From Bacteroidales bacterium (GTDB taxonomy: Bacteria > Bacteroidota > Bacteroidia > Bacteroidales > UBA932): a DNA stretch of 64,000 bases. A program made the translations under genes and the position numbers. This document shows, piece by piece, positions 586 through 14,978 of this stretch. The DNA is taken from contig JAFSQE010000032.1 in NCBI GenBank assembly GCA_017446775.1, forward strand, positions 1 through 64,000, in the 5' to 3' direction. Within the stretch, counting starts at the first letter, position 1. Every line of letters begins with the position of its first letter. The notes beneath the pieces were generated by a model. That model was not told the origin of the DNA. It searched no databases and saw nothing but the letters and a program-made list of their open reading frames with translations.

Positions 586-1656
586 ATGTCGGATATTGCC
601 AAACAGAGATTTACTGCGATTGACTTCTTCTGTGGTGGGGGAGGTATGACTTGCGGACTTCGCCAGTCTGGAATTGATGTGATTGCAGGTGTGGACTTTG
701 ATCCGACAGTAGGAGAAACCTATGAGTTTAATAATCCTGGAAGCAAATTCATCAATTCTGACATTAACCTTCTTCCTGAGAGCTACTTCGAAGATAAATT
801 TGGCGTTCAGAGGGATGATGACAACCTTATTCTGGTCGGATGCAGCCCTTGTCAGTACTACAGCATCATCAATACGGATCGTACAAAATCATTGAAGACC
901 AAAGATTTGTTGATGAGCTTTGCCAGATTTATTGAATATTACAGACCCGGATATGTCCTAGTGGAAAATGTTCCTGGCATTGTAACAAACAAATATTCTG
1001 TTTTGCCGGAATTCCTTAATAAACTCGTAAGTCTTGGATATGGTGAAACTGTTGATGACATCAAAAGGGATGTTATTGACCTCAGTTATTATGGAGTCCC
1101 TCAAAGTAGAAGGCGTTTTTCGCTTATAGCTACGAGGTTGCCTGGTATCTCTCTTTGTCTTCCAAAACCTGATGCTGAGCAAAGGAGGCTTCGCTCGTGC
1201 ATCGGAGTAACCAATGGCTTCCCGAGTATTGAAGCTGGCCATCGTGATAGCAGCGATTTCAATCATTCGTGTGCCTGTTTAAGCGATGTTGGCAAGCAAC
1301 GAATGATCCGTACTCATAAAAATGGTGGCAGCAGGCTTGATTGGGCAAATGACCCCCAACTTCAGTTGGCTTGTTATGAAGGGAAAGATGACAGTTTTAC
1401 AGACAACTACGGAAGGATGTCATGGGACAAACCGGCACCAACGATAACGACGAAGTTCCTCAGCATTTCAAATGGACGGTTCGGCCATCCAGATGAGGAC
1501 CGTGCGATTTCAGTCCGTGAAGGAGCCGCCATACAAACTTTCCCCAATACTTATGTATTCAAGACCACAAGTATGGGAAATGCCGCCAAGATAATTGGGA
1601 ATGCTGTGCCCTGTGAGTATGCAAGGCGCTTGGGACATCTCATTCAATCTTTTTAA
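586..1656 (+). CDS. DNA C5-cytosine methyltransferase
   Basis: This enzyme transfers a methyl group from S-adenosylmethionine to C5 of cytosine in DNA. The diagnostic motifs are in order: motif I (DFFCGGGGMTCGL), motif IV with the catalytic Cys at about residue 89 (GCSPCQYYS), motif VI (VLVENVPGI), motif VIII (PQSRRRFSLIA) and motif X (IGNAVPCEYA). The reading frame is open from a TTG at 568, but I prefer the ATG at 586, which gives 356 aa. It is the first gene of a tight operon; the GHKL gene begins 6 bases after its stop. No restriction enzyme is immediately adjacent, so it may mark self DNA for the operon rather than act in a simple type II pair. The recognition sequence cannot be read from the sequence. 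Confidence 0.93.
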   Translation: MSDIAKQRFTAIDFFCGGGGMTCGLRQSGIDVIAGVDFDPTVGETYEFNNPGSKFINSDINLLPESYFEDKFGVQRDDDNLILVGCSPCQYYSIINTDRTKSLKTKDLLMSFARFIEYYRPGYVLVENVPGIVTNKYSVLPEFLNKLVSLGYGETVDDIKRDVIDLSYYGVPQSRRRFSLIATRLPGISLCLPKPDAEQRRLRSCIGVTNGFPSIEAGHRDSSDFNHSCACLSDVGKQRMIRTHKNGGSRLDWANDPQLQLACYEGKDDSFTDNYGRMSWDKPAPTITTKFLSISNGRFGHPDEDRAISVREGAAIQTFPNTYVFKTTSMGNAAKIIGNAVPCEYARRLGHLIQSF

Positions 1657-1662
1657 GCACTT

Positions 1663-3783
1663 ATGACTGAATCCTTTTCAATAACACCGAGAGTAATTGC
1701 CCATTTGGGTGAGGATCTAATAAAAAACGAAAGCATTGCGATTCTCGAATTGGTAAAAAATTCCTATGATGCCAATGCGTCGAAGTGTGTCGTTCATTTT
1801 ACGGAGGAAAAGGGTTCTATAAGGAGTATTATTATTGCCGACAATGGTGTTGGTATGAACGAGGACACTATTAAGAATGTCTGGCTTGTCATAGGTACCG
1901 ACAATAAGAAAAAGATATTTGAGGGGACGCATGACGGTTCCAGATTACCTCTTGGAGAAAAAGGTGTAGGCAGGCTTGGTGTTCATAAATTAGGACGCAA
2001 GATTTCTCTCATATCCAAGACAAAAGTCGATGACGAGGTGTCGCTCACAATTGATTGGACAAAGCTAGACACAGCAAATTCTTTGGAGGATTTCCCGGTA
2101 GAAATTAGAACAAATGCTACCCCATCGGTATTTCGCGACGGAGAGACAGGAACCAAGATAATTATTGATGATCTTAAATGTGATTGGCAAAAAAGGCAGC
2201 TTCGGGATGTTTACAGAAATTTGATGTCTCTCAACAGTCCATTTGTTGATACGAGCGAGGATTTTAAAGTAGAGATATCCAGCAACAATCCTTCTCTGTT
2301 TGAAGGGTTGCCGAAATTTGAGGACATCATTTCCAATGGTGGACTGTATTTTGGCAGCTGTACTATGAAAGGCAGCTCTGTATCTGAATTCTCATATGAT
2401 TTTAGGCCTTGGAAGACGCTCACAAAAGTTAAGTCTGGCAGACATGTAGGACTTTCTGATTTGAACACCCTCGATATAAGCATTACAGGCTCAAGGGTCG
2501 TGGAGGGGAAATCAAAACCAGAAGATTATGACATCGACCTAGAAAAACTTCATATCGGAGAGATTAAATTTGATATCATTATTTTCGAGATGGACTCGGC
2601 AATATTGAATTACCTCAATGCTGAAAAAACCATCATCAGGGATTATCTTAATGAAAATGGTGGAGTAAGGGTCTATAGAGATAATGTGCGTGTCTATGAT
2701 TATGGGGAGAGAGATAACGACTGGCTGGGTATTGACCTCAAAAGAGTTCACCGAGTTGGAGGAAACGTCAGCAATAATATAATACTCGGCTCTGTTAGGC
2801 TGAATCGTGCTGAAAGTACTGGACTCAAGGAAAAAACTAATCGTGAGGGGTTCATCGAGGATGAGACATACAGTGCATTTGCAGATGCCGTCAATCATGT
2901 CTTATCCATATTTGTCAGATTAAGAAACGAAGATAAGGAAAGGCTGACCTTTTTATATAAAACGAATAAGGCCGTTGAACCGGTTCTTAGTAGTTTGGAA
3001 GATGCAGTCACGTTGATAAATGCAAAAGTTGAAGACGAGAAAAGCCGGAAAGAACTATTAAATTGTATCGATCGTGTTAATGTGCAGTACAAGGCTGTTA
3101 AAGAAACTCTGATTAAGAGTGCCAATGCCGGCCTCAATTTATCTGTTGTTATCCATGAAATCGACAAACAGGTTGCGGCTCTTCATGGAAGCGCAGAGAG
3201 AGGTGAAGTTGAAAAAGTGGTCTCGATATCAAAGAATCTTGAAAAGATTATTCGTGGCTACACCGCTATGATCAAGAAATCGAATATTGGGCTAGGGAAG
3301 CTTTCTGACGTGGTGTCAATCGCTCTGGACAATTATGAGTTCCGCTTCTCCGACCACAGAATCGATGTCCTCTCGAACTGGAATACATCTCAGCTTAAGG
3401 CTCAATTTGCCCGGGCTGAATCTATTGCAGTACTGACTAACCTTTTGGATAATGCAATTTATTGGGTGAGCAAGACAAGACATGACGACCGGAAGATATC
3501 TGTGTTTTTAACGGATCAGGTTTCCGGATATAGCACGATCGTTGTCAGTGACAACGGCCCCGGGTTCAATATTGGAACAGATGTCGCGATTCAACCTTTT
3601 ATTTCGGGTAAACCTAATAATGTCGGAATGGGGCTTGGTCTGCATATCGCAAACGAAATGATGAATGCGATGAAAGGATGTCTGATATTTTATGATGAAA
3701 AGGATATTACGCTTCCTGAAGAAGTTGTTAAAGCTGGCGCGAACAAAGCTATTGTCGCACTCTGCTTCCCAAAAGGAGAATAA
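1663..3783 (+). CDS. double-GHKL ATPase / histidine-kinase-like protein
   Basis: The 706-aa protein carries two ATP-binding GHKL domains. The N-terminal one is of the MutL/HSP90/MORC kind: N box ELVKNSYDAN (Glu29, Asn33, Asp36), DNGVGM (Asp60), and GEKGVGRLG near residue 100. The C-terminal one is histidine-kinase-like: N box LLDNAIYW (Asn597), SDNGPGF (Asp630) and GMGLGLHIAN. Between them, a predicted helical stretch around residues 420-520 contains VVIHEIDKQ with His498 in an H-box-like setting, so it could dimerise and autophosphorylate. No membrane segment or periplasmic sensor is present, so the protein is cytoplasmic. It lies between a DNA methyltransferase and a receiver-like protein (4 bases downstream), which supports a phosphorelay with the N-terminal ATPase as sensor. 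The phosphorelay is inference; the two GHKL folds are clear from the motifs. Confidence 0.85.
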   Translation: MTESFSITPRVIAHLGEDLIKNESIAILELVKNSYDANASKCVVHFTEEKGSIRSIIIADNGVGMNEDTIKNVWLVIGTDNKKKIFEGTHDGSRLPLGEKGVGRLGVHKLGRKISLISKTKVDDEVSLTIDWTKLDTANSLEDFPVEIRTNATPSVFRDGETGTKIIIDDLKCDWQKRQLRDVYRNLMSLNSPFVDTSEDFKVEISSNNPSLFEGLPKFEDIISNGGLYFGSCTMKGSSVSEFSYDFRPWKTLTKVKSGRHVGLSDLNTLDISITGSRVVEGKSKPEDYDIDLEKLHIGEIKFDIIIFEMDSAILNYLNAEKTIIRDYLNENGGVRVYRDNVRVYDYGERDNDWLGIDLKRVHRVGGNVSNNIILGSVRLNRAESTGLKEKTNREGFIEDETYSAFADAVNHVLSIFVRLRNEDKERLTFLYKTNKAVEPVLSSLEDAVTLINAKVEDEKSRKELLNCIDRVNVQYKAVKETLIKSANAGLNLSVVIHEIDKQVAALHGSAERGEVEKVVSISKNLEKIIRGYTAMIKKSNIGLGKLSDVVSIALDNYEFRFSDHRIDVLSNWNTSQLKAQFARAESIAVLTNLLDNAIYWVSKTRHDDRKISVFLTDQVSGYSTIVVSDNGPGFNIGTDVAIQPFISGKPNNVGMGLGLHIANEMMNAMKGCLIFYDEKDITLPEEVVKAGANKAIVALCFPKGE

Positions 3784-3787
3784 GAAA

Positions 3788-5068
3788 ATGAAAGCAACGG
3801 ATTACATTAGCAGCGTGCTGATAATTGATGATCAGCCAGAAGAGGTGGCAGGTCTTGAAGAGGTCCTGAAATCAAATGATGTTTTATACACGTTCTGTGA
3901 CCCGAATAATTTGCCGGATTCTACGTATCGAAATCGGCAAATCATTTTTTGCGATTTATATTTGAGTGCAACAGCAACCGAAGTGGAAGGGCACATCTCT
4001 GAGCTCAGGAAAATTTTAAAACGAGTTGTTGGCAAGGAGTTCGGATCATATGGAATTGTCCTCTGGACAAATCATCTTCAGCATATCGATTTGGTGAAAG
4101 AGAGGATTTCTAGAGATGGCTCTGCATATAGCCTTCCTTTGTTTATTATCGGACTGGATAAAGCAGGTTATTCGAAAGACGGATTCTCAAACATCTTTGA
4201 GGATTTAAGCAAAAAACTTGCAGGTGATAAAGCTGCGCATTTTTTCCTGAACTGGAGAGAAAGCATTTCTGAATACGCAGATAAAACATTGGCTAAGATT
4301 TATAGTTTAGTTCCTGATTTCGAGAACCAAGAAGCCAAGTTGTCATATGTCTTGTATTTGCTCGCGGCGAATTATCCCGGAAAACCCATTGATGGAGAGA
4401 AAAAATATGAAGGGATGTATCATGATGCGTACAAAGCCTTTGATGAGATCCTATATTCAGAACTCTCCGATTGTGCCAAATCCGGTTTTTGTGATGTATT
4501 CAACGATACAACTCCTAACCCGTGGAAAGACAATCCGGCTGAAGGGCTGTCCATAGTTTCTAAGCTGAATGACAGATTGCTAATTGAACACGATGATATT
4601 GACCATGATTCAATAGTTCCCGGGAACGTTTATATGGTTTGTGATAAGGATTCGGAATTAATCATTAGCGAAGCCCCTGAGAATGCAATCAATATCGCCA
4701 TTGAGCTCACTCCACCGTGTGATTTTTCGCAAAGCAAGAAAAAGTTGTCAAGATTAGTTGGAGGCTTCATTCTTTCCCCTGTAGATGCTGCAAAGTGGAA
4801 GTCTATCAAGGCAGATTATAAGGGCGAAAGAAATTACCCCATATGGCCTGTTGAAATTGAAGGAAAAATAGGTTTGATATGTTTTGATTTCAGATTTCTT
4901 TCATCAGCAAGCGATGCCGTCCTAAATGATGACAAGAAATTCAAGTTTCTGTTTAAAGTAAATCATAAGTTGTTTTCTGACATCTTGCAAAAATTCTCCT
5001 CGCACGCTGCCAGATTGGGAATATCATTAATTGATCCCACTCGCAAAGTGACAGGCAAAAAGAATTAG
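3788..5068 (+). CDS. receiver-like protein with unknown C-terminal domain
   Basis: The N-terminal 110 or so residues resemble a response-regulator receiver: acidic pair Asp14-Asp15 in VLIIDDQPEE and the candidate phosphoacceptor Asp56 in IIFCDLYL, followed by a beta strand ending GIVLWTNH. The usual lysine of receivers is not obvious. The remaining 300 residues match no family I recognise and have no helix-turn-helix, so the output is probably not transcriptional. The frame is open from 3692, but the upstream part overlaps the kinase gene; ATG 3788, 4 bases after the kinase stop, is the natural start (426 aa). As partner of the double-GHKL protein it could carry the effector activity. Confidence 0.7.
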   Translation: MKATDYISSVLIIDDQPEEVAGLEEVLKSNDVLYTFCDPNNLPDSTYRNRQIIFCDLYLSATATEVEGHISELRKILKRVVGKEFGSYGIVLWTNHLQHIDLVKERISRDGSAYSLPLFIIGLDKAGYSKDGFSNIFEDLSKKLAGDKAAHFFLNWRESISEYADKTLAKIYSLVPDFENQEAKLSYVLYLLAANYPGKPIDGEKKYEGMYHDAYKAFDEILYSELSDCAKSGFCDVFNDTTPNPWKDNPAEGLSIVSKLNDRLLIEHDDIDHDSIVPGNVYMVCDKDSELIISEAPENAINIAIELTPPCDFSQSKKKLSRLVGGFILSPVDAAKWKSIKADYKGERNYPIWPVEIEGKIGLICFDFRFLSSASDAVLNDDKKFKFLFKVNHKLFSDILQKFSSHAARLGISLIDPTRKVTGKKN

Positions 5069-5083
5069 CGACCTCATTGTGTG

Positions 5084-5995
5084 ATGCCCAGCCTTCTCAT
5101 CCTCGGCAACGGCTTTGACCGCGCACACGATCTAAAGACATCCTACTGGCATTTCAAAGAATGGCTCATGAGTCATGGGCGCTTTGATGTTATTGCTGAA
5201 CTGCAGTCTCTTTTCCCGGTACAGCAGGATGGCAAGTATCTTCTTTGGTCCCAATTTGAGAAAGCATTGACTCAGAATGACAAGGCCGCTGTTGAAAGGT
5301 GGGGATGGGACAGCCTGTATCTCACAATTGAAGAAGAAGACGGAAGAGAAACCGTAACGTCAGGGGACATCCTTGACACGGCTATCTCTGATATTGTCAG
5401 GAATAGTTTTTCTGCGTGGGTAAATGATATCGAGATCACCGGCACGCGCATTTTTGCTTTTAACAGTTGTAAAAAATTCATTACATTCAACTATACAGAA
5501 ACTCTTGAATGTCTGTATTCTATCCCGGCAGAAAGGATCCTGCATATTCACGGAAAAGCACATTCGGATTCTAGAATCATCGTAGGACATCGAACTGCGG
5601 TTGACCCTCTATCTGGCTCTTTTGAGAATAACGATTTTAGAGGGAACAATGGCATAATACAGAACCTTGGTGATTTTGCTGAACTGCACAAGCCTTCCGA
5701 AAAGCTTATCGAACAGAAATCATTGTTTTTCAATTCATTGAAAGGTGTCGATTTCCTAGTCGTTTTCGGCCACTCTTGTAGTGATGTTGATAAACTATAT
5801 TTCGAAGCAATTGCCGCAAATGTGGGGCCGGATGCTAGGTGGTTATTCTGTTACTTTGATGAGCGGAACGATCTGGTCAACATGGAACAGTTGATCGATT
5901 CCATTACGCTTGACCGGAATCGGGTTTCTTTTATGAGGACTGAAGATTATATCCGAAGCCAATGTGGCACCGTTAAAGGAAAAAGATTGAGATAG
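5084..5995 (+). CDS. AbiH-family abortive infection protein
   Basis: The N-terminus PSLLILGNGFDRAHDL is the hallmark of the AbiH family (PF14253), named for a lactococcal phage-resistance gene. Further family features are FITFNYTETL, HIHGKAH, IIVGHRTAVDP and, near the C-terminus, VVFGHSCSDVDKLYF. At 303 aa it is of usual length. GTG 5081 and ATG 5084 are both possible starts; I use ATG. It is the last gene of the operon, 15 bases after the receiver-like gene, and probably acts as an effector that harms the infected cell. The biochemical activity of AbiH is not established, so that role is inference. Confidence 0.85.
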   Translation: MPSLLILGNGFDRAHDLKTSYWHFKEWLMSHGRFDVIAELQSLFPVQQDGKYLLWSQFEKALTQNDKAAVERWGWDSLYLTIEEEDGRETVTSGDILDTAISDIVRNSFSAWVNDIEITGTRIFAFNSCKKFITFNYTETLECLYSIPAERILHIHGKAHSDSRIIVGHRTAVDPLSGSFENNDFRGNNGIIQNLGDFAELHKPSEKLIEQKSLFFNSLKGVDFLVVFGHSCSDVDKLYFEAIAANVGPDARWLFCYFDERNDLVNMEQLIDSITLDRNRVSFMRTEDYIRSQCGTVKGKRLR

Positions 5996-6012: not shown

Positions 6013-6537
6013 TCAGTGTCCCTTGAGCTCCGCCAGAAGAGCCGCTTCCTTTTCCCGCTGCTGCCGGCGCATCAGCCTGTAGGCTTCGCGTGAGCGCCGA
6101 CGGTCCTCCTGGGCAGAGAGATAGAGCTCGCCGTTCCGGAGAATCTCAGCTCGGACACGGCCAACAGTATCCTCCAACATAGTTTTCTTCAATTCGCACT
6201 CCCAGACGATAATGACCGACCAGCCTTTCGCTTCCAGCTGCCGCCAGACCTCCTGGTCCCGCTCCTGATTCCTGGTCACCTTCGCCGTCCAAAACTCAGT
6301 GTTGGTCTTGGGGACCGTGTAGTTCTTGCAGTCCTTGTGACCGTGCCAAAAGCATCCGTGGACGAATACCACCGTCCGGTACTTGGGCAGCACTATGTCC
6401 GGTTTCCCCGGCAGCCGCCTTTCATTAATCCGGTAGCGGAACCCCAAGCTCCACAATGCACGGCGCAGCTTCAACTCCGGGCCGGTGTTCTTGGCGCGGT
6501 TATGAGACATACATTTGAAACGCTGCTCTGGAGTCAT
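6013..6537 (-). CDS. vsr: very short patch repair endonuclease Vsr
   Basis: Vsr nicks DNA 5' of the T in T:G mismatches that arise when 5-methylcytosine deaminates. The family pattern is complete: start MTPEQRFKCMSHNRAKNTGP, the catalytic region PGKPDIVLPKYRTVVFVHG with the Asp of PD, then CFWHGHKDCKNY and TNTEFWTAKVTRN. At 174 aa it is somewhat longer than E. coli Vsr because of a charged C-terminal tail. It is convergent with abiH and divergent from the Sau3AI-like gene. Its codons are clearly richer in GC than those of both neighbouring modules, which suggests a separate origin. It could serve either of the two nearby C5 methyltransferases. Confidence 0.93.
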   Translation of the reverse strand: MTPEQRFKCMSHNRAKNTGPELKLRRALWSLGFRYRINERRLPGKPDIVLPKYRTVVFVHGCFWHGHKDCKNYTVPKTNTEFWTAKVTRNQERDQEVWRQLEAKGWSVIIVWECELKKTMLEDTVGRVRAEILRNGELYLSAQEDRRRSREAYRLMRRQQREKEAALLAELKGH

Positions 6538-6615
6538 TGGAATATGGATAACAATGCAAATTTACGCAGATTCAACTGAAAATGATTAACTTTGGCAATA
6601 ATAACCCCAGACAAC

Positions 6616-8022
6616 ATGGAATTTAACTACGATAGGACCGATAAATGGTCCATATTGGAGTATAGTAAGCGGCTTCTTGGCAAAACCTTGGAGCAGGCTA
6701 TTGCTCCGGACATCATTTCTGCCCGCAAAGGGAAAGGACGCCTTGGCCAGCTGGTTGAGGAGTATTTCTTTGGGTACGATGTCAATTCTAATCCGGATGC
6801 AGATTTCTCGGACGCCGGCCTGGAGCTGAAAGTCACGCCTCTCAAAGAACTGAAGAATAAGGTGCTGGCAATCAAAGAGCGTCTTGTTTGTACGATGATA
6901 GACTATGATGTCGATCAGGATAAGCCATTTGAGCAATCCCACGTCTATCTGAAATGCGCCTACATGCTGATTCTCTTCTACCTCCACGAGGCAAATGTTC
7001 CTGTCCAGCAGTTACTGTTTATCTACTCTGTCCTGTGGCAGATTCCGGAGAAAGACCTGCTTATCATGAAGCAGGACTACGAAAAGATTATTGGCAAGAT
7101 TCGCGCTGGAAAGGCACATGAGATCTCCGAAGGAGATACGACCTATCTTGGTGCCTGCCGGAAGGGCCAGAGGGGAGACTCCGATGTTTATTACAATCTC
7201 CCAGATGGATCACGTGCAGAAATTCCGGCTCCTAAACGGGCCTTCTCGCTGAAGACACAGTACATGCGGACCATACTGGCCTTTGCCGAAAAGACTGGTG
7301 GACAGGGCACATACAATACTTCTGCATTGGTGCATGGCTATGGGCCTCATCTCATTGAAGAAAGTGAACTCCGCGAGAAGTATTTCGAAGACATCCTCCT
7401 GGATCGATTCAAACCTTACTACGGTAAGACCTATGACGAGCTGGTAAAAGAGTTGCATGCTCCCACCACCGGCGCCAAGAGCAAGTATTTCTTGATTGCC
7501 AATGAAATCCTTACCGAGGGTGAAACCCGCGGCGAGGATGTGACAAAAACCGACGAGTTCATCAAGTCCGGTATTGTCATCAAGACTATCCGCCTTAATA
7601 AGAATGGCCGTCCTGCAGAAGCTATGTCATTCGAGAACATCAACTACTTTGATATCCTGCAGGAAGACGATTGGTATGAATCCCGACTCTATGACATCTT
7701 CACCGGCCACTTCCTATTTATCGTATTCCAGGAAGGAGAGGACGACCAAGCACGCCTTGAGAAGGCGTTTTTCTGGACGATGCCGGTGAACGATTTGGAA
7801 GAAGCAGAAGGATATTGGAAGAGCATCAAAGAAGCTGTCAAGGAGAACCATATTGCTCCTGAGTATTTCTATCGCGAAAGCGACCACCGGAAGTTCCATG
7901 TACGTCCCAAGGCTAAGAATGCGGCAGATGTAACAGCCAATCCTCATGGAGGCACGTCCAAGAAGTACTGCTATTGGTTCAACCACGACTACATCAAGGC
8001 GATTGTGGAAAATGCCGAATAG
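6616..8022 (+). CDS. Sau3AI-type restriction endonuclease (GATC)
   Basis: This is a type II restriction enzyme of the MutH/Sau3AI family, which cuts at GATC. The catalytic signature is Asp63-x6-Glu70-x-Lys72 (DFSDAGLELKV), the same spacing as in MutH. The N-terminal SILEYSKRLLGKTLEQAI and GKGRLGQLVEEYFFG are typical, and a second MutH-like half follows in the C-terminus. At 468 aa it is close to Sau3AI (489 aa). The frame is open from TTG 6592; ATG 6616 is preferred. Its partner methyltransferase is convergent and ends 33 bases away. The GATC specificity rests on family resemblance. Confidence 0.87.
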   Translation: MEFNYDRTDKWSILEYSKRLLGKTLEQAIAPDIISARKGKGRLGQLVEEYFFGYDVNSNPDADFSDAGLELKVTPLKELKNKVLAIKERLVCTMIDYDVDQDKPFEQSHVYLKCAYMLILFYLHEANVPVQQLLFIYSVLWQIPEKDLLIMKQDYEKIIGKIRAGKAHEISEGDTTYLGACRKGQRGDSDVYYNLPDGSRAEIPAPKRAFSLKTQYMRTILAFAEKTGGQGTYNTSALVHGYGPHLIEESELREKYFEDILLDRFKPYYGKTYDELVKELHAPTTGAKSKYFLIANEILTEGETRGEDVTKTDEFIKSGIVIKTIRLNKNGRPAEAMSFENINYFDILQEDDWYESRLYDIFTGHFLFIVFQEGEDDQARLEKAFFWTMPVNDLEEAEGYWKSIKEAVKENHIAPEYFYRESDHRKFHVRPKAKNAADVTANPHGGTSKKYCYWFNHDYIKAIVENAE

Positions 8023-8054
8023 AAATATTCGAGGCTCAGCACCTCGCATTCTCT

Positions 8055-9308
8055 TTATCTTTTCAGCCTAGATTCCAGCTCTTTGCCAACCTTTGTGACG
8101 ATTCCGCAAACAAGGGCATTTCCCATCAGGAAGGCTCTTTTCCCGTTGTCGACTCCTTCTAATTTAGTATGGTCTTTAGGGAACATATTCAAACCTTCTA
8201 ACTCGGCTGGAACCAGCCTGCGATAGCGTCCGGTCTGATCAATGATGATGTGCCTACAACGATCAGGACTCTTGCCTCCTTCTGATGTTATGATTGTTCT
8301 CGATGGTTTATCAATCGAATCGGGGAACTCCATTCCGCCCTCCGAAAACACATACTGGATGCCGTTCTTCTTGGTTCTAGGCACGCGCTTAGCGCCCTTG
8401 AAATACTTCCATCGCTCAATCTGTTCTTCAGGGACGTAAAACTCTTCGGGGACCTCCTCGGGCTCGACCATCACATCTCTGATTGTCATTTGCTTTTCAT
8501 CGCAAGATGGAATCGTGGCCACAGTGTAGGCTATACCGTCCAACATAACACCACTTTTTTCAAACGGATGCAACTTGTTATTCTTGTTGAATTCGTTAGT
8601 AATGTCCACTAGGCGGTCTTTCTTATTATCTGAAAGCTTGATTTTGCGCAGGGCAGGAAGATTCTCCTCGATGAGCACCGGGAAAGCTTTGGCAAATATA
8701 CCAGAGTGGAAAACCCAGTCTTCCGGTTTCGTGAAGCTCTTCCCGATGATGCCGTCTTTCTTGTAACCAACAATGTACGTACGGCGACGTTTCTGGGGCA
8801 TTGCATACTCGGCGGCATTGATTACGCGCCATTCAACAATATACCCCAACTCATTCAGGCACTCAAGAATGATTGCGAAATCACGTCCGCGTTGACTTGC
8901 GGGGGATAGAAGTAGGCGATCAACATTCTCGAGGAAGACAATCTCAGGACGGTTGGCACCTTTTTCTTTGAGGATGCGATAAATGGACCACCAGAGAACA
9001 CCCTTCTTACCCTCTATGCCTTTGGAATTACTGAGAGTGGTTGCCACAGAGTAGTCCTGGCACGGAAATCCACCCACAAGCATATCGTGGTTTGGAATAT
9101 CCTCGGTCTTTACCTGGTTGATGTCGTCATTTACCACGCTGCCTTTGCCGAAGTTCTTTTCATAGACCATAGCCGCATGCTGAACTTTAGTGGCAGGTTC
9201 CCACTGATTGGCCCAGATGGTCTTATAGAAGTCTGCGTCGGCCCTGTCAAGACCAACCCTAAATCCTCCGACACCGGCGAACAGCTCTATGACTCTTACT
9301 TCTTTCAT
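8055..9308 (-). CDS. DNA C5-cytosine methyltransferase, Sau3AI-type
   Basis: This methylates the cytosine, probably of GATC, and protects host DNA from the adjacent nuclease. Motifs: I (VIELFAGVGGFRVGL), IV with catalytic Cys83 (GGFPCQDYSVA), VI (VFLENVDRL), VIII (MPQKRRRTYIVGY) and a C-terminal FLMGNALVCGIV as motif X. It is close in size (417 aa) to M.Sau3AI. The frame is open from a TTG at 9323, but ATG 9308 directly precedes the conserved start of the fold. The genes of this pair point at each other. It is clearly different from the methyltransferase at 586-1656, so the island has two independent C5 methylation activities. Confidence 0.92.
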   Translation of the reverse strand: MKEVRVIELFAGVGGFRVGLDRADADFYKTIWANQWEPATKVQHAAMVYEKNFGKGSVVNDDINQVKTEDIPNHDMLVGGFPCQDYSVATTLSNSKGIEGKKGVLWWSIYRILKEKGANRPEIVFLENVDRLLLSPASQRGRDFAIILECLNELGYIVEWRVINAAEYAMPQKRRRTYIVGYKKDGIIGKSFTKPEDWVFHSGIFAKAFPVLIEENLPALRKIKLSDNKKDRLVDITNEFNKNNKLHPFEKSGVMLDGIAYTVATIPSCDEKQMTIRDVMVEPEEVPEEFYVPEEQIERWKYFKGAKRVPRTKKNGIQYVFSEGGMEFPDSIDKPSRTIITSEGGKSPDRCRHIIIDQTGRYRRLVPAELEGLNMFPKDHTKLEGVDNGKRAFLMGNALVCGIVTKVGKELESRLKR

Positions 9309-9636
9309 GCGTTTCAAAAACAATGTATCAAAGGTACATACTTATTCGTTTCGATCCAAATTATTCGACATCGTCTCTCGTTTTTCAGGCTCTTTGATAT
9401 CCATGACATCATTGAAGCAAACTAGGGCATTTGCCCGCATTAGAGTTTTTTTTGCTATATTTACCTGATCATAGAAAGCAAGCCTTCATTCAATTAAGTC
9501 TGTCCATTTACTCTGATGGCAGTATTGCGCGTTGTTTTGTGCCATAATGACGGCAAGGGCAACTACGTTAAAAGAATTGGATTGGCATAATTGTCTTTCT
9601 TCAGGAGTATAATGAACTAGTAACCATTCTATTACA
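9309..9636. other. intergenic region before the MORC-like operon
   Basis: This 328-base region separates the outward-reading starts of the Sau3AI-type methylase and the MORC-like gene, so it must hold two promoters. A weak candidate for the plus strand is TTTG (9430-9433) with TATATTTA about 22 bases on, in a T-rich tract; it is one base off consensus. On the minus strand an open frame of about 58 codons, without a good start, ends at 9486. I see no repeats. Confidence 0.4.
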
Positions 9637-11103
9637 ATGGGAAGAAGAGTTGTTAAGAATTATCCGTCTCCTAGATTGATGGAAACAATAGGTGCAACGA
9701 ACCAATCGCCTCAAGCGGCGATTGGAGAATTAGTGGCTAACTGTTTTGATGCGAGATGTGGCGAAGAAAAGCTAAATATCTCCATCGACATGAGGAACAA
9801 CCAGATAGTTGTCTTGGATAATGGGAAAGGTATGACTTCCGAGATTCTGGAGAAAGCCGTCTGCATAGGTGAAGATATGTCTAGATATATTGAGAGAGGC
9901 GAAGGTACTAAAGGCCATTTTGGAATGGGGTTCAAAACGTCTTGCTCCACTTTAGGTGATTATTATGAAATCTATACTAGGCCTGTTGATGAGAATGTTG
10001 AGTATCATACCGCTTTCGATATCAAAGACTACAGCGTTCGTCCGTCTGGTTCTGATGCGTGGGATATTGCCATAGAAGATGGTAAGCCTTCAATCTACTC
10101 GCCGTTAAAAAAAGCCCCTCACGGGACTGCGTTCGTAATTAAGAACCTGAAGATAAACGAGTTCCCCGTAAGCGCTGTACTTGAGTATCTAGGAGACGCC
10201 TTCAAGGGGCACATCGAGGGAGGTGACATCATTACTGTAATCGATGAGAATGATAGTTATCCCGCCAAGCCCAAGACGTATAGCTTTGTCAAAGGGACGA
10301 AAGTCATAATTGACGAGAAGTTTGGACCGGGGAACAAATACCATATTACAGGATGGGTCGCAATTGACAAACAGACACACAACGATGGCTTATATGGTTT
10401 TAACATCTATCGTAGAGGCCAGTTAGTCGTCTCTCATGATAAGAGTTGGTTCACGGCGCACTTGATGACTAGTCGTATCATTGGAGAGGTAAATATGGAT
10501 TTCCTCGATGCAACATTTTATAAGCAGGGTGTGCAGCAGTCTGAGGATTGGGAATTCGTGAAAATCCATATGAAAGATTTCCTTAAGGGCGTAGTGGCTG
10601 CCTCTCGTAATCTTAGTAGGGGGCACAACATCAATAAACCGTCTGAAAAGAAAGCTGTTCTTGAGCAACTAGACAAAGAGTATGTAATCGAGAATGAAGG
10701 TGCCGATACTCCAGCGACAGAGCCAAACAATGAATCCCGCGAGGACACCAAACCGAGCGTAAGTATTAACGACTCTGTAAAAAGCATAGTGACTGAAAAG
10801 TCGCTCTTCATGGAGGACGGGAGTGAAATCCATATTACTTATCTAGAGAAGGAAGAGGATGGACATGAAGTAGGTCCCTTTGATTACATTCTTGATATGT
10901 ATCAGGAGCCGCAGGAGCTGCAGGTCCTTGTCTATAAAGACCATCCACTTTGGCGGAAAAAGATTGATGGTGAAGTGCGTAGGATAATTGCAACTTCTGA
11001 TGCTATCTATCGCTCACTTGTAGAGGAATTGGATGTAGACAGCAGGAAGGCATTAAAGATTCGGAATGAATGGGTCTCACAGAGGACTGAATCAATGAAG
11101 TAG
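9637..11103 (+). CDS. MORC/MutL-like GHKL ATPase
   Basis: The N-terminal half is a GHKL ATPase: N box GELVANCFDA (Glu31, Asn35, Asp38), VVLDNGKGMT (Asp61) and GHFGMGFKTSC as the ATP lid. This resembles the MutL-type ATPases of restriction-modification systems from which eukaryotic MORC proteins are thought to derive. The C-terminal third (from about residue 350) is acidic and I do not recognise it. At 488 aa it starts a tight operon (gaps of 2 bases) with an unknown protein and a PLD-SNF2 helicase, the usual company of this class. It likely acts as an ATP-driven clamp or switch for the complex; that role is inference. Confidence 0.85.
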   Translation: MGRRVVKNYPSPRLMETIGATNQSPQAAIGELVANCFDARCGEEKLNISIDMRNNQIVVLDNGKGMTSEILEKAVCIGEDMSRYIERGEGTKGHFGMGFKTSCSTLGDYYEIYTRPVDENVEYHTAFDIKDYSVRPSGSDAWDIAIEDGKPSIYSPLKKAPHGTAFVIKNLKINEFPVSAVLEYLGDAFKGHIEGGDIITVIDENDSYPAKPKTYSFVKGTKVIIDEKFGPGNKYHITGWVAIDKQTHNDGLYGFNIYRRGQLVVSHDKSWFTAHLMTSRIIGEVNMDFLDATFYKQGVQQSEDWEFVKIHMKDFLKGVVAASRNLSRGHNINKPSEKKAVLEQLDKEYVIENEGADTPATEPNNESREDTKPSVSINDSVKSIVTEKSLFMEDGSEIHITYLEKEEDGHEVGPFDYILDMYQEPQELQVLVYKDHPLWRKKIDGEVRRIIATSDAIYRSLVEELDVDSRKALKIRNEWVSQRTESMK

Positions 11104-11105
11104 CC

Positions 11106-11747
11106 ATGGACAAAATTGATGCGCTAGAATTAATTAGAAAGACTTGGGATTCCGAGAATCTGAGTCTGGAGAAGAAGATTATTACAATCTCTGAAGCTTT
11201 CTACTCGGTTGGACTTGACATAGCCACTACGGCTAACTTTATTAAGACTACCCCTGCCGAACTCTATGCATTTTTGTCTTTGAGCAATCTAGACGAAGAG
11301 ATGATCAGGATGATTTCTGATGCAAATCCGCCTAAGACAACTTGGCCATTACTATCAAGTGGCAATGACGACGAGATTAAGAAGGCTTTGTCCGCACTGG
11401 CTGATACATCTAGATCGCAGAATGAGTCAGTCAGTGAGTTTATTTATCAACAGATGATTGAGGTGGCCGGTGCTTCTTCAGAGCAGCAACTTTCTCAACT
11501 TACGGGAGGCGAAATGTTTGCATTGGCAAAAAAAGCAAAAAACTTCACGTCGGTGAATCCAAACACTATTAAGTTTTTAAATAGCCTGGCAGGGCAAAAG
11601 AAACGAGGCAAAGCATTAAGCGAAAAACAGATAGCCACACTGAAGGATATTCTTAATAATCTCGCAGATAACAAAGTCATCCAACGCAACAGTATTGATG
11701 GCGACGAAGAGTTGTGTGACAAAGTATTGGATGCTCTCGAAAGATAG
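11106..11747 (+). CDS. hypothetical protein of the MORC operon (213 aa)
   Basis: I do not recognise this family. The protein appears mostly helical, with no signal peptide or membrane segment. The first 70 residues (ITISEAFYSVGLDIATTANF onwards) could form a helix-turn-helix-like bundle; the C-terminal part (LSEKQIATLKDILNNLADN) has the look of a small DNA- or protein-binding bundle. It begins 2 bases after the ATPase gene and ends 2 bases before the helicase gene, so it is very probably translated with them and part of the same complex. Confidence 0.6.
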   Translation: MDKIDALELIRKTWDSENLSLEKKIITISEAFYSVGLDIATTANFIKTTPAELYAFLSLSNLDEEMIRMISDANPPKTTWPLLSSGNDDEIKKALSALADTSRSQNESVSEFIYQQMIEVAGASSEQQLSQLTGGEMFALAKKAKNFTSVNPNTIKFLNSLAGQKKRGKALSEKQIATLKDILNNLADNKVIQRNSIDGDEELCDKVLDALER

Positions 11748-11749
11748 AT

Positions 11750-13843
11750 ATGGGGCTTAAGGACATAGATATCAAAGTCAGTTATGCCGGCAAAGGCGGA
11801 GACATCCTTAAGAGTTTTCTTTTGCCTTCGATAGATGCGAGTGTCCACTATGACCGCGTCACAAGTTTCTATACCGTTGAATCATTGTTGGCCATCTCCC
11901 AGGGGATAGATTCCCTATACCGGAAGCATGGTAGGATGAGGTTAATCATAGGTATACACAGTTTCCCCGGTGAATTCCTTGATGCTGTGACGAGAAGAAA
12001 ATACCTTGAAGAACAAATAGATGAGATAAGGAACAATCTGAGATTAGGTATAGAATCCATTAAAGATAGCTTGGAGAGACAACGGTTGGCAACCGTAGCT
12101 TGGATGATTGAAGATGGTCTCCTTGAGATAAAGACTGCAGATGTAATAGGAGAGGGTATTTTCCATCCTAAGACATTGCTTCTGGCCGATGAAGGTGGAG
12201 ATAAGATTGTTGCGATTGGTAGCCCCAATGAGACGAGCTCTGGATTAGGCGGCAACTTTGAGCAGGTCATGGTCGCCAAATCTTGGGAGCAACCGGATGC
12301 CGTGACGGTCCAAGAAGAATTCTTTAATTCACTATGGAATAACAAAATTGAGGATGCCATTACGCTTGATGTTACAGAGAGTACTGCGGAAATTATCAAG
12401 CAAGGACTAGGAACTTACTCCAATCCGTCTAAATCAAATCAATCTTCAAAAAACGATTTGATTAAAGTGTCCTCGGCCATGTTGTCAAACTTCTTTGTCT
12501 CTGGTGACATCCCAGCTCTGTATGTGCATCAGGAACGCGCTGTAATAGATGCTCTTTCTAGATGGCCGGTTAGAGTATTATTCTCAGATGAGGTTGGCTT
12601 GGGTAAGACCTTCGAAGTCGCAGCCACAATGGCTTTCATGGTGAAGTATTGCGGAGTAAAGAGGGTAATTATACTGACACCGAAATCAGTTTTGAAACAG
12701 TGGCAAGATGAACTGAAAGAGCATTTCAAACTGAATGTGTGGAGATATGATTCCGGCAGCAGGTCTTATATCGATTCCTTTGATCATATAAAGTATGTGA
12801 ATGGTTCAAATCCAATTGGGAAAGGGTCTCCAGACATAATGCTGATGTCGGCTCAGTATGCACGAGGCTCCGGTAACAATGGTGATATCTTCTCCAGAAG
12901 TGGAGCCTGCCTGCCAGAATTACTTATTCTTGATGAAGCTCATTCGGCGAGAGTAAGTAAAGACATCTCCGGAAGCAGTAAGAAGACGCAAATCTATGCG
13001 ATGCTGGAGAGGGTCTCGGCGAAGATTCCTCATATGATATTAGCGACAGCCACCCCCATGCAAAAAGAAGCCGGGGAGTACCATTCGCTGCTTAAACTCC
13101 TTGGCTTGCCCAAGGCATGGCAAAAGGCGTCGGCCTATATGAAATCGCTAGATTTAATCTCATGTTCCGAGTATCCTAGTCTAACAGACTTGAGTAGTGC
13201 TGCAAAAATGCTCAATATGACGATGGAGGGCATGAATCCAACCATTGATAGATTAAACGAAGAACAGAACCGAGTACTAAATCGAGTGATAGAACTCAAG
13301 GATAGTGACGTGACAATTCTTACTGACTATGTACGAGACAATTGGTCAACTATACGTCAGCTCCTTGTCCTACTGCATCCGGCCCATTTACTGACGGTCA
13401 GAAACACAAGACGCTCCCTATCTGAAAAAGGATACAAATTTCCTAATAGGAGGTTGACCCCTATTTCAATTCCTGATTCCATGGAAATAGAGATGTTCTA
13501 TGACCATGTGAACAGCTATCTGTCAAAAAGGTGTTTCTCCATAGAAGAGATTCTTTTCCCTGATAGAAAGATCTCTATCGGCTTTGTGCGTGTTAGTTAT
13601 CAGCAAAGGGTCGCTTCCTCATTGTATTCTTGTAAGAAGAGTCTGGAAAGACGTCTGGATAAGATAAACAACTTGAAAAAGACCCTGGAACGGTATCTCA
13701 ACGCCAATGGTGCCTCCCTTTCTAACCCGACAGGACTGGACGACGTCGATCTTGAAGATTTATTTGACGAAGGTTACGATGACACGTTTGACGTAAATCT
13801 TTCCAACGTGAATATTCCAGAGCTGCCAAGCCATCGTTCTTGA
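11750..13843 (+). CDS. PLD-SNF2 helicase, N-terminal part (frameshifted gene)
   Basis: The first 230 residues look like a phospholipase-D-type nuclease module: TSFYTVESLLAISQG, HPKTLLLADEG and AIGSPNETSSGL form an HxK...GSxN pattern. A superfamily II ATPase follows: motif I DEVGLGKTFE (Lys286), Ia LTPKSVLKQW, II LDEAHSAR (Asp395) and III LATATPMQ. The frame ends at 13843 just before helicase motif IV, which continues in another frame. Removing one C from the pair at 13826-13827 joins NIPEL to QAIVLES and gives one protein of about 1,075 aa. The gene is therefore either recently broken or carries a sequencing error. As read, it lacks motifs IV-VI and cannot be an active translocase. Confidence 0.85.
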   Translation: MGLKDIDIKVSYAGKGGDILKSFLLPSIDASVHYDRVTSFYTVESLLAISQGIDSLYRKHGRMRLIIGIHSFPGEFLDAVTRRKYLEEQIDEIRNNLRLGIESIKDSLERQRLATVAWMIEDGLLEIKTADVIGEGIFHPKTLLLADEGGDKIVAIGSPNETSSGLGGNFEQVMVAKSWEQPDAVTVQEEFFNSLWNNKIEDAITLDVTESTAEIIKQGLGTYSNPSKSNQSSKNDLIKVSSAMLSNFFVSGDIPALYVHQERAVIDALSRWPVRVLFSDEVGLGKTFEVAATMAFMVKYCGVKRVIILTPKSVLKQWQDELKEHFKLNVWRYDSGSRSYIDSFDHIKYVNGSNPIGKGSPDIMLMSAQYARGSGNNGDIFSRSGACLPELLILDEAHSARVSKDISGSSKKTQIYAMLERVSAKIPHMILATATPMQKEAGEYHSLLKLLGLPKAWQKASAYMKSLDLISCSEYPSLTDLSSAAKMLNMTMEGMNPTIDRLNEEQNRVLNRVIELKDSDVTILTDYVRDNWSTIRQLLVLLHPAHLLTVRNTRRSLSEKGYKFPNRRLTPISIPDSMEIEMFYDHVNSYLSKRCFSIEEILFPDRKISIGFVRVSYQQRVASSLYSCKKSLERRLDKINNLKKTLERYLNANGASLSNPTGLDDVDLEDLFDEGYDDTFDVNLSNVNIPELPSHRS

Positions 13844-14978
13844 ATCAACTGCAATTTCGCCTCTAATAAAGCGAGCTGGTGAACTGCTGGATAATCGCAA
13901 AGATCTTAAAATCAAGGAGTCAATCGCACTCGCAAAAAAGAGCCTGGACGCCGAAGACAAAGTCTTGGTCTTTTCCAGGTATACTGATACGGTTGACGCC
14001 CTTCTCAACGAATTCAATCTTCTGGGGCTGCACAAATTCTATAAATATGGAGTGTATACCGGAGCGACGTCATGTGTCGTCTGGAATGGGAAAGAGTGGC
14101 CTTGTGATAAGAATGACCTCAAGCGGGGTCTCTTCTCAGGAGATATTAAAATCGTATTCTGTTCTGATGCTGCATCGGAAGGCTTGAACCTTCAGGCTGC
14201 AAGAGTTTTGATTAACGTTGATGTACCTTGGACTCCAGCCAGACTTGAGCAGCGAGTGGGCCGTATTGCTCGTTTGGGCCAGATAGCAGATGAAGTTGTT
14301 GTATACAATGTGTGGTACCCCCATAGTATTGAGGCCCGTATGTACCATAGGATACAAACTCGCCTTGAGAATAGCAACCTCGCTATAGGAGAGTTTCCCG
14401 ATGTTGTCGCCAAGAAGATACGTGCAGCAATCATGGACGACGCGGATAGTGATAAATTGGGCCTTAATGAGTTACTTGAAATCCGTAATTCAAAACAGGT
14501 GGCCGCTCTTGAAGAACTATGGAGTCAAACAGGTCAAGGAACTGAAAGCGACCTGTTTAGAGAACGCTTGTTGAGAATCTGCTCAAGGATTCTCAAGGAA
14601 GTGGGTACGGAATTAGGTGGAATCATCAAGGTATTTGAGACAACAGACGGGACGCAATTAAGGTTGTCCGCAAAAAGTGGTTTGGCTGAGAGTATTTCTC
14701 TAAAGGCCAGAGTATGGGAACACATAAAGTGTTTTGACGATTCCGTATCCGTAGTAAAAGGTAGGAATCTCAGACCCGCTTATTTCACCATAAACAATGA
14801 TGGTGTGACAATTGAGTTGAAGCATTCAAGTATTCCCAAAGTCATCCTAAAGGAAGAGCTCGGCGGAGAAGACGTATTGATGGGCTATCCTCCAATGCTG
14901 CCAAACAGCAATCGGTTGGATTTATCCTATGCCGTCGAATGTGACATAAAACCCGCACCTATGTGCTGGGTTGAATAA
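13827..14978 (+). pseudogene. PLD-SNF2 helicase, C-terminal part in shifted frame
   Basis: From 13827 this frame continues the upstream helicase without overlap of content: KVLVFSRYTDTVDALL (motif IV), IVFCSDAASEGLNLQAA (motif V) and LEQRVGRIARLGQ (motif VI), then a family-specific tail. There is no good start codon at the junction; the first possible one in frame is TTG at 13965, inside motif IV. So this half is unlikely to be made independently unless a ribosomal frameshift or an internal start operates. The stop at 14978 lies 10 bases before the next gene. Confidence 0.8.

Follow-up and report, generated by a model that had tools for sequence, protein, structure and literature searches.

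Near the start of a contig from a Bacteroidales bacterium, four genes encode a C5 cytosine DNA methylase, a histidine-kinase-like ATPase, a receiver protein and an AbiH-family protein. This raises the question which of these genes belong together and which of them would deliver the output, if the locus serves in defence. The first-pass annotation of this DNA regarded all four as one unit for self/non-self marking, signal relay and cell killing.

The locus and its surroundings

The window, the whole stretch of 64,000 nucleotides that was analysed, begins at base 1 of its contig, and M1, which starts at 586, thus lies near the contig start. The open reading frames of M1, HK, RR and AbiH are where the first-pass annotation had placed them, separated by the 6, 4 and 15 bases that it gave. 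The features are as follows.

586..1656, plus strand: M1, C5 cytosine DNA methyltransferase, 356 aa (PF00145, 8.9e-47)
1663..3783, plus strand: HK, histidine-kinase-like protein with two GHKL ATPase domains (HATPase_c_3 and HATPase_c), 706 aa
1735..2079, plus strand: N-terminal GHKL domain of HK, similar to the BbrUII/HgiDII N-terminus (HATPase_c_3, residues 25-139)
3154..3156, plus strand: codon of HK H498, candidate phospho-acceptor histidine (68/68 aligned homologues)
3430..3690, plus strand: C-terminal HATPase_c of HK, kinase catalytic domain (PF02518, 7e-15, residues 590-676)
3788..5068, plus strand: RR, receiver protein with a predicted toxin-fold output, 426 aa (model pLDDT 91.4)
3788..4222, plus strand: receiver (REC) domain of RR, phospho-acceptor D56 (codon 3953-3955)
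4229..4582, plus strand: middle segment of RR, residues 148-265, all-helical in the secondary structure of the model
4604..5017, plus strand: C-terminal output domain of RR, residues 273-410, predicted MazF/CcdB/Kid-like fold
5084..5995, plus strand: AbiH-family gene (PF14253, 2.5e-50)
6013-6537, minus strand: Vsr
6592-8022: Sau3AI-family restriction enzyme (NF040973, 9.6e-121, above the model cut-off)
8055-9323, minus strand: second C5 methylase, adjoining the Sau3AI-family enzyme

The locus sits in a low-G+C island with several defence genes (41-50% G+C in the first 16 kb, 51-58% in the remainder except for 49% at 60-62 kb), in agreement with its earlier description as part of a defence island. 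Searches of the genome returned just two C5 methylases (M1 included), one such kinase and one AbiH, and E. coli genomes gave no near match to the four-gene stretch. The catalytic motifs of M1 were recognised by eye. Since a separate methylase at 8055-9323 adjoins the Sau3AI-family enzyme, this enzyme is probably not the partner of M1. The genes at 6013-9323 form a complete-looking Sau3AI-family restriction-modification set with Vsr, in alternating orientation.

Architecture of the kinase and the receiver protein

Both ATPase models, HATPase_c_3 and HATPase_c, matched all 68 aligned homologues of HK. The eight residues checked in each ATP site were unchanged in 68/68; in the C-terminal site these are N593, D596, N597, D630, G632, G634, G657 and G659. 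H498 is likewise invariant (68/68) and E499 occurs in 63/68. Among solved structures, histidine kinases match the C-terminal half of HK at ~1e-12 (ZraS 1.5e-12), and MutL, HtpG and MORC match its N-terminal part. Model NF050001 (BbrUII/HgiDII) matches residues 6-206 at 2.3e-24, far under the cut-off for full members, and positions 7-211 of the HK profile match the GHKL region of the ParaMORC3 enzyme of phage PhiR44_1 (2.8e-33). The BbrUII/HgiDII restriction-modification systems (paraMORC3; Iyer 2008; VcSduA/Shedu-like) thus share with the window both a methylase lineage and a homologous N-terminal GHKL domain. In paraMORC3, however, the GHKL domain is fused to a nuclease according to the available parts of PMC2292703 and PMC12137116, whereas in the window it is fused to a histidine kinase and RR is a separate protein; where paraMORC3 and VcSduA have a C-terminal nuclease, HK matched histidine kinases. 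The same parts of these papers report that in a phage-defence GHKL-nuclease of paraMORC3 architecture neither the ATPase nor the nuclease residues are dispensable (PMC12137116) and that MORC-type GHKL proteins occur in restriction-modification neighbourhoods with cytosine methylases and Vsr (PMC2292703).

RR was assigned no Pfam family in a Pfam scan of the four ORFs. It contains a REC fold with the acidic pair, Asp, Thr/Ser and Lys of a response regulator, and these active-site residues are near-invariant across RR homologues. In the C-terminal domain C311 is invariant and D312, R409 and G411 are each present in 75/76. The fold was predicted from a full-length model and then from the C-terminal domain modelled alone, and both were compared by Foldseek. 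Among the 50 matches listed for the full-length model, 46 were receiver-side and 4 were MazF; for the domain alone, the matches listed included the MazF/CcdB/Kid toxin fold, with Foldseek E-values no better than 0.03. The C-terminal domain of RR is modelled on this basis as a MazF/CcdB-like toxin fold, of which the known activities are RNA cleavage and gyrase poisoning.

A sequence relationship of this domain to PemK/MazF was considered and rejected: PF02452 (PemK_toxin) matched none of the 76 RRs, hhalign of RR against 24 PemK proteins gave a probability of 0.1%, and the likeness is one of fold only. The position compared with the catalytic Arg of MazF holds R in 36/76 RRs and K in 10, in a weak alignment. 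RR further differs from the MazF/Kid/CcdB toxins in the fusion of the domain to REC and, probably, in its conserved residues; the invariant residues of RR are presumably not those conserved in MazF. At one other locus (L031:15010-17778) the receiver profile also matches a 923-aa protein that is encoded ~4.9 kb downstream from the kinase and has no Pfam family; a shorter receiver ORF adjoins the kinase at this locus as well.

The first-pass annotation could match the gene combination to no named system, but a sister family has been published. The available text of PMC8011034 (2021) describes HK-like/RR-like pairs (HEF_HK/Response_reg_2, PF19191/PF19192) linked to C5 methylases and Vsr; it gives the RR as without other known domain, and signalling that controls restriction-modification is a speculation of its authors. 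HK-RR resembles these pairs in the kinase, which combines HATPase_c_3, a DHp-like His and HATPase_c, in the adjacent divergent REC protein, in the C5 methylase upstream, in the nearby Vsr and in the interchangeable methylases. The window's kinase has 706 aa, as compared with 967-1001 aa for the HEF_HK-type kinases of four loci. At these four Response_reg_2 loci, which are those above cut-off (3 more genomes gave 4 weaker matches, which were left out), a methylase, a kinase of 967-1001 aa and a receiver of 528-575 aa follow one another in this order in 4/4, and Vsr was found in 1/4. PF19191 (HEF_HK), run without a positive control, matched 0/68 HKs. PF19192 (Response_reg_2) matched 0/76 RRs at E<=0.01 and nothing in the source genome; the model itself works, as 4/198 genomes were above cut-off and 7 had any match. 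It is new that the Response_reg_2 model misses the RR family of the window although profile comparison relates both, with related REC domains (E 3.8e-6, probability 87%, 92 columns). The alignment of RR to the Response_reg_2 C-termini is weak (E 0.0016, probability 16%), and the CD and RxG residues are in register in 4/4 of them. HK-RR and HEF_HK/Response_reg_2 look, from their sequences, like sister families of one kind. Also new is the toxin fold modelled for the RR C-terminal domain, which the available parts of PMC8011034 do not assign; in the open-licence literature we found no paper in which Response_reg_2 proteins are given such a MazF/CcdB fold. The available part of a machine-learning study (PMC13092281, 2026) names HATPase and REC in a figure of predicted systems, as unvalidated domains.

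Recurrence of the unit and exchange of methylase partners

The comparison covered 102 loci: 78 on genome contigs, 17 on viral contigs, 5 on plasmids, L123 and the locus of the window. Loci with an HK score of at least 200 bits were included; L001 (the window itself), L007, L084 and weaker matches were left out. The genome-contig set stems from the 80 top-ranking relatives out of 574 or more. Near-copies were kept (L029/L088, L090/L091, L093/L094, L097/L099/L103 and L004/L006) and contigs are cut at L011, L040, L041, L071, L077 and L087. Gene calling followed a rough rule that takes the longest ORF, 'next to' implies no distance bound, and distances are absolute, some of them being overlaps.

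RR adjoins HK in 96/102 loci of this set, and a C5 methylase is the neighbour gene beside the pair in 74/102, which supports the earlier view of the methylase and the soluble two-component-like pair as one unit. This methylase is upstream and co-directional in 48/102 loci, from several phyla, upstream and opposed in 5, convergent after RR in 19 and co-directional after RR in 3; one locus contributes two. Counted from the third gene before the kinase to the fifth behind it, a C5 methylase is present in 85/102 loci, and Vsr is near the cassette in 46/102. As a baseline, a C5 methylase is present in 43 genomes of a 99-genome sample of the phylum. The kinase and receiver genes are thus not found mainly without methylase neighbours, L087 being a case to the contrary. 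This viral-contig fragment carries the kinase nearest to that of the window (65% identical over residues 1-355) with a 490-aa ORF without methylase similarity upstream, and it is among the 28/102 loci in which no methylase adjoins the pair, in some owing to contig ends. In all nine of the closest genome-contig relatives (kinase 56-63% identical; from the best 80 of at least 574) the methylase is directly upstream. For more distant kinase pairs, an annotated methylase adjoins in 2/7 plasmid copies and none in 5/7, with incomplete annotation. Three loci (L009, L015 and L078) are compact, with Vsr directly behind M-HK-RR; in L015 and L078 the contig stops shortly afterwards. Distances correlate at 0.90 for HK-RR, 0.47 for RR-M and 0.40 for HK-M (n=67, permutation p 0.001 each). 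Three phage records match HK, two over at least 80% of HK and without annotation; the third is the BbrUII-type enzyme of PhiR44_1.

The gene order of the window therefore recurs only in part: M-HK-RR is found elsewhere, but the four-gene order with AbiH is confined to the window among the 102 loci. The recurring unit is three genes, M1, HK and RR, not four. AbiH was found in 1/102 loci by a single-sequence search, which a divergent AbiH could escape, and its earlier interpretation as the conserved output is not borne out. It is absent from all eight of the nine closest genome-contig relatives whose contigs run past the kinase, and occurs in 11/99 genomes of the order, source genome included. 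AbiH as a conserved fourth gene was rejected on the 1/102 count, and it is probably a co-directional local accessory outside the core. Compared with solved structures, AbiH gave chance-level matches only; a relation to SIR2 folds is conceivable.

AbiH of the window fits a variable slot behind RR. At other loci the gene behind RR encodes an HNH_2 nuclease (L018, L032, L074, L079, L092) or another HNH (L045), AspBHI-N/Mrr (L017), NOV_C (L020), an Eco57I-type enzyme (L051), a McrB-like protein (L008), an HhH-GPD glycosylase (L022, L024, L046 and, by similarity, L021), a MORC-like GHKL protein (L023) or DUF2971 (L027), and in convergent orientation HipA (L043) or HNH_2 (L010, L014). Vsr follows RR on the same strand in 7/94. 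Of 30 neighbour proteins scanned, some not directly behind RR, 6 had no family and that of L016 a chance-level family only. SIR2_2-TPR (L080:11809-13653) and RES (L057:11079-11615) also lie right behind the receiver, and SIR2 and RES domain types include NAD-consuming toxins. A homologue of HhH-GPD (MutY-like) glycosylases is present in L018, L021, L022, L024, L046 and L051, directly behind RR in four of them. None of these six loci shows a Vsr gene, present near 46/102 overall, and the glycosylase may stand in for Vsr there in repairing deaminated 5-methylcytosine.

M1 shares 52% identity with the methylase from one Response_reg_2 system (L151) and 21-27% with those that accompany six more remote kinases of the HK family. 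Identities to M1 ranged over 21-66% for all methylases compared, and down to 21% for seven of the same kinase family outside or at the edge of the closest clade. Since methylases as low as 21% identical to M1 accompany this kinase family, HK probably does not recognise a single, fixed site. The methylase tree has 47 rows, with further methylases thinned to even-numbered loci. A group of 16 rows (support 100/99) contains the window clade (10), Response_reg_2-linked methylases (4) and two phage copies; a warning of the tree program concerns the long branches that join this group to one of 8 rows. Two of the Response_reg_2-linked methylases, on starred branches, are nested among those of the window clade. 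In phage PhiR44_1 the partner of the methylase is a restriction enzyme of the BbrUII/HgiDII family (NF050001, 9.2e-226), and in the Mcat28 copy its neighbours are unnamed proteins. One methylase lineage thus adjoins three alternative partners, a GHKL-type restriction enzyme, HEF_HK/Response_reg_2 or the HK-RR pair, which is a new observation. Because the same lineage stands beside either a restriction enzyme or a kinase-receiver pair, HK-RR seems to occupy the restriction enzyme's place, the simplest reading of this exchange. In PhiR44_1 (L162, 6016-9064) the C5 methylase and the BbrUII/HgiDII-type enzyme, annotated ParaMORC3, are convergent and lie between replication and portal genes; the phage has P2-type gene names.

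Proposed function and alternatives

We propose, at about even odds, that M1-HK-RR is a restriction-modification-like defence cassette in which a phosphorelay replaces the restriction enzyme and a toxin-fold RR is the output. In its favour stand the recurrence of the three genes, the preserved active-site residues of HK and REC, the shared methylase lineage, the match of the HK N-terminus to the GHKL region of the PhiR44_1 enzyme, and the toxin fold modelled for RR together with the REC, CD and RxG likeness to Response_reg_2 proteins. Phosphorelay, DNA sensing, toxicity and phage defence are here inferred from the architecture. M1 would mark host DNA at its site, and the MORC/MutL-type GHKL half of HK would survey DNA and respond to foreign or unmethylated DNA. 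The second GHKL domain may then phosphorylate H498, from which the phosphate would move to D56 of RR, and phosphorylated RR could release or dimerise its C-terminal MazF/CcdB-fold domain so that growth stops. A nearby Vsr or glycosylase would repair deaminated 5-methylcytosine, and AbiH may be a local passenger or a second effector. More tentatively, and with somewhat less confidence, the methylase lineage may have swapped its restriction enzyme for a DNA-sensing kinase and a MazF/CcdB-fold RR, unmethylated DNA then leading to growth arrest by phosphate transfer and not by cleavage. A phosphorelay in phage defence is also the basis of Detocs, the defensive two-component system, which HK-RR would resemble in this respect; to our knowledge Detocs has neither a methylase nor a MORC-type GHKL domain.

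If the cassette works in this way, a pair that is widespread and was described in 2021 with no output assigned gains a candidate effector within its own response regulator, and the published HEF_HK/Response_reg_2 family would follow the same logic. Two-component phosphorelay would join restriction-modification with toxin-antitoxin logic, and methylation would gate immunity by another route besides DNA cleavage. Loss of the methylase is predicted to be lethal only with intact kinase and receiver, and H498, D56, C311 and R409 are the candidate key residues. In the open-licence literature we found no paper on phage tests of the kinase-receiver pair. The fold-only likeness to MazF, the 28/102 loci without an adjoining methylase, the distant pairs without an annotated one and the low identity of some of the family's methylases to M1 count against the cassette.

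HK-RR could instead be a regulator that controls how strongly neighbouring restriction-modification genes are expressed or how active they are, with promoters or the enzymes as targets of RR, as speculated in the available text of PMC8011034. We consider this rather unlikely, but it has points in its favour: Sau3AI-family restriction-modification genes lie farther on in the window, at 6592-9323, and restriction nucleases of unrelated kinds adjoin the cassette in several loci (HNH_2, AspBHI/Mrr, NOV_C, EcoRII-C, MvaI/BcnI and McrB), which suits a regulatory role and counts against a pure toxin role. However, the model of the RR output shows a MazF/CcdB fold in place of a usual DNA-binding output, the pairing of one methylase lineage with either a restriction enzyme or HK-RR looks like replacement, and the compact M-HK-RR-Vsr loci, two of them on contigs that end soon after, favour a toxin role.

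A relay from HK-RR to AbiH, with AbiH as the killing protein, is improbable. AbiH does begin 15 bases past RR on the same strand, and the differing genes behind RR (SIR2_2-TPR, RES, HNH_2, Mrr, NOV_C) leave room for a swappable second effector. Its rarity beside the pair, its absence from the closest relatives and its occurrence in a minor part of the order's genomes speak against this relay, as does the toxin-fold domain predicted within RR, in which the killing output is likelier to reside than in AbiH. Slightly less probable still is that M1, HK-RR and AbiH are mere neighbours without common function. Such co-residence would be consistent with the low-G+C island, the modest HK-M co-divergence (r 0.40) and the pairs without an adjoining methylase, but not readily with a methylase directly upstream and co-directional in nearly half of the loci, across phyla, and directly upstream in all of the closest genome-contig relatives and in the four Response_reg_2 loci examined.

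Further genes of the window's island resemble other defence functions. A second MORC-type GHKL protein (HATPase_c_3 and Morc6_S5) and, 2 bases on, a 213-aa gene without family occupy 9637-11747 and are followed by a PLD-helicase, with which they are a candidate for a separate defence operon. The PLD-helicase (11750-14978) is split and resembles the phospholipase D-like anti-phage protein NF042964: the ORF at 11750-13843 covers positions 6-635 of 895 and that at 13965-14978 is, by eye, the helicase-like C-terminal continuation, so that the gene looks broken or frameshifted.
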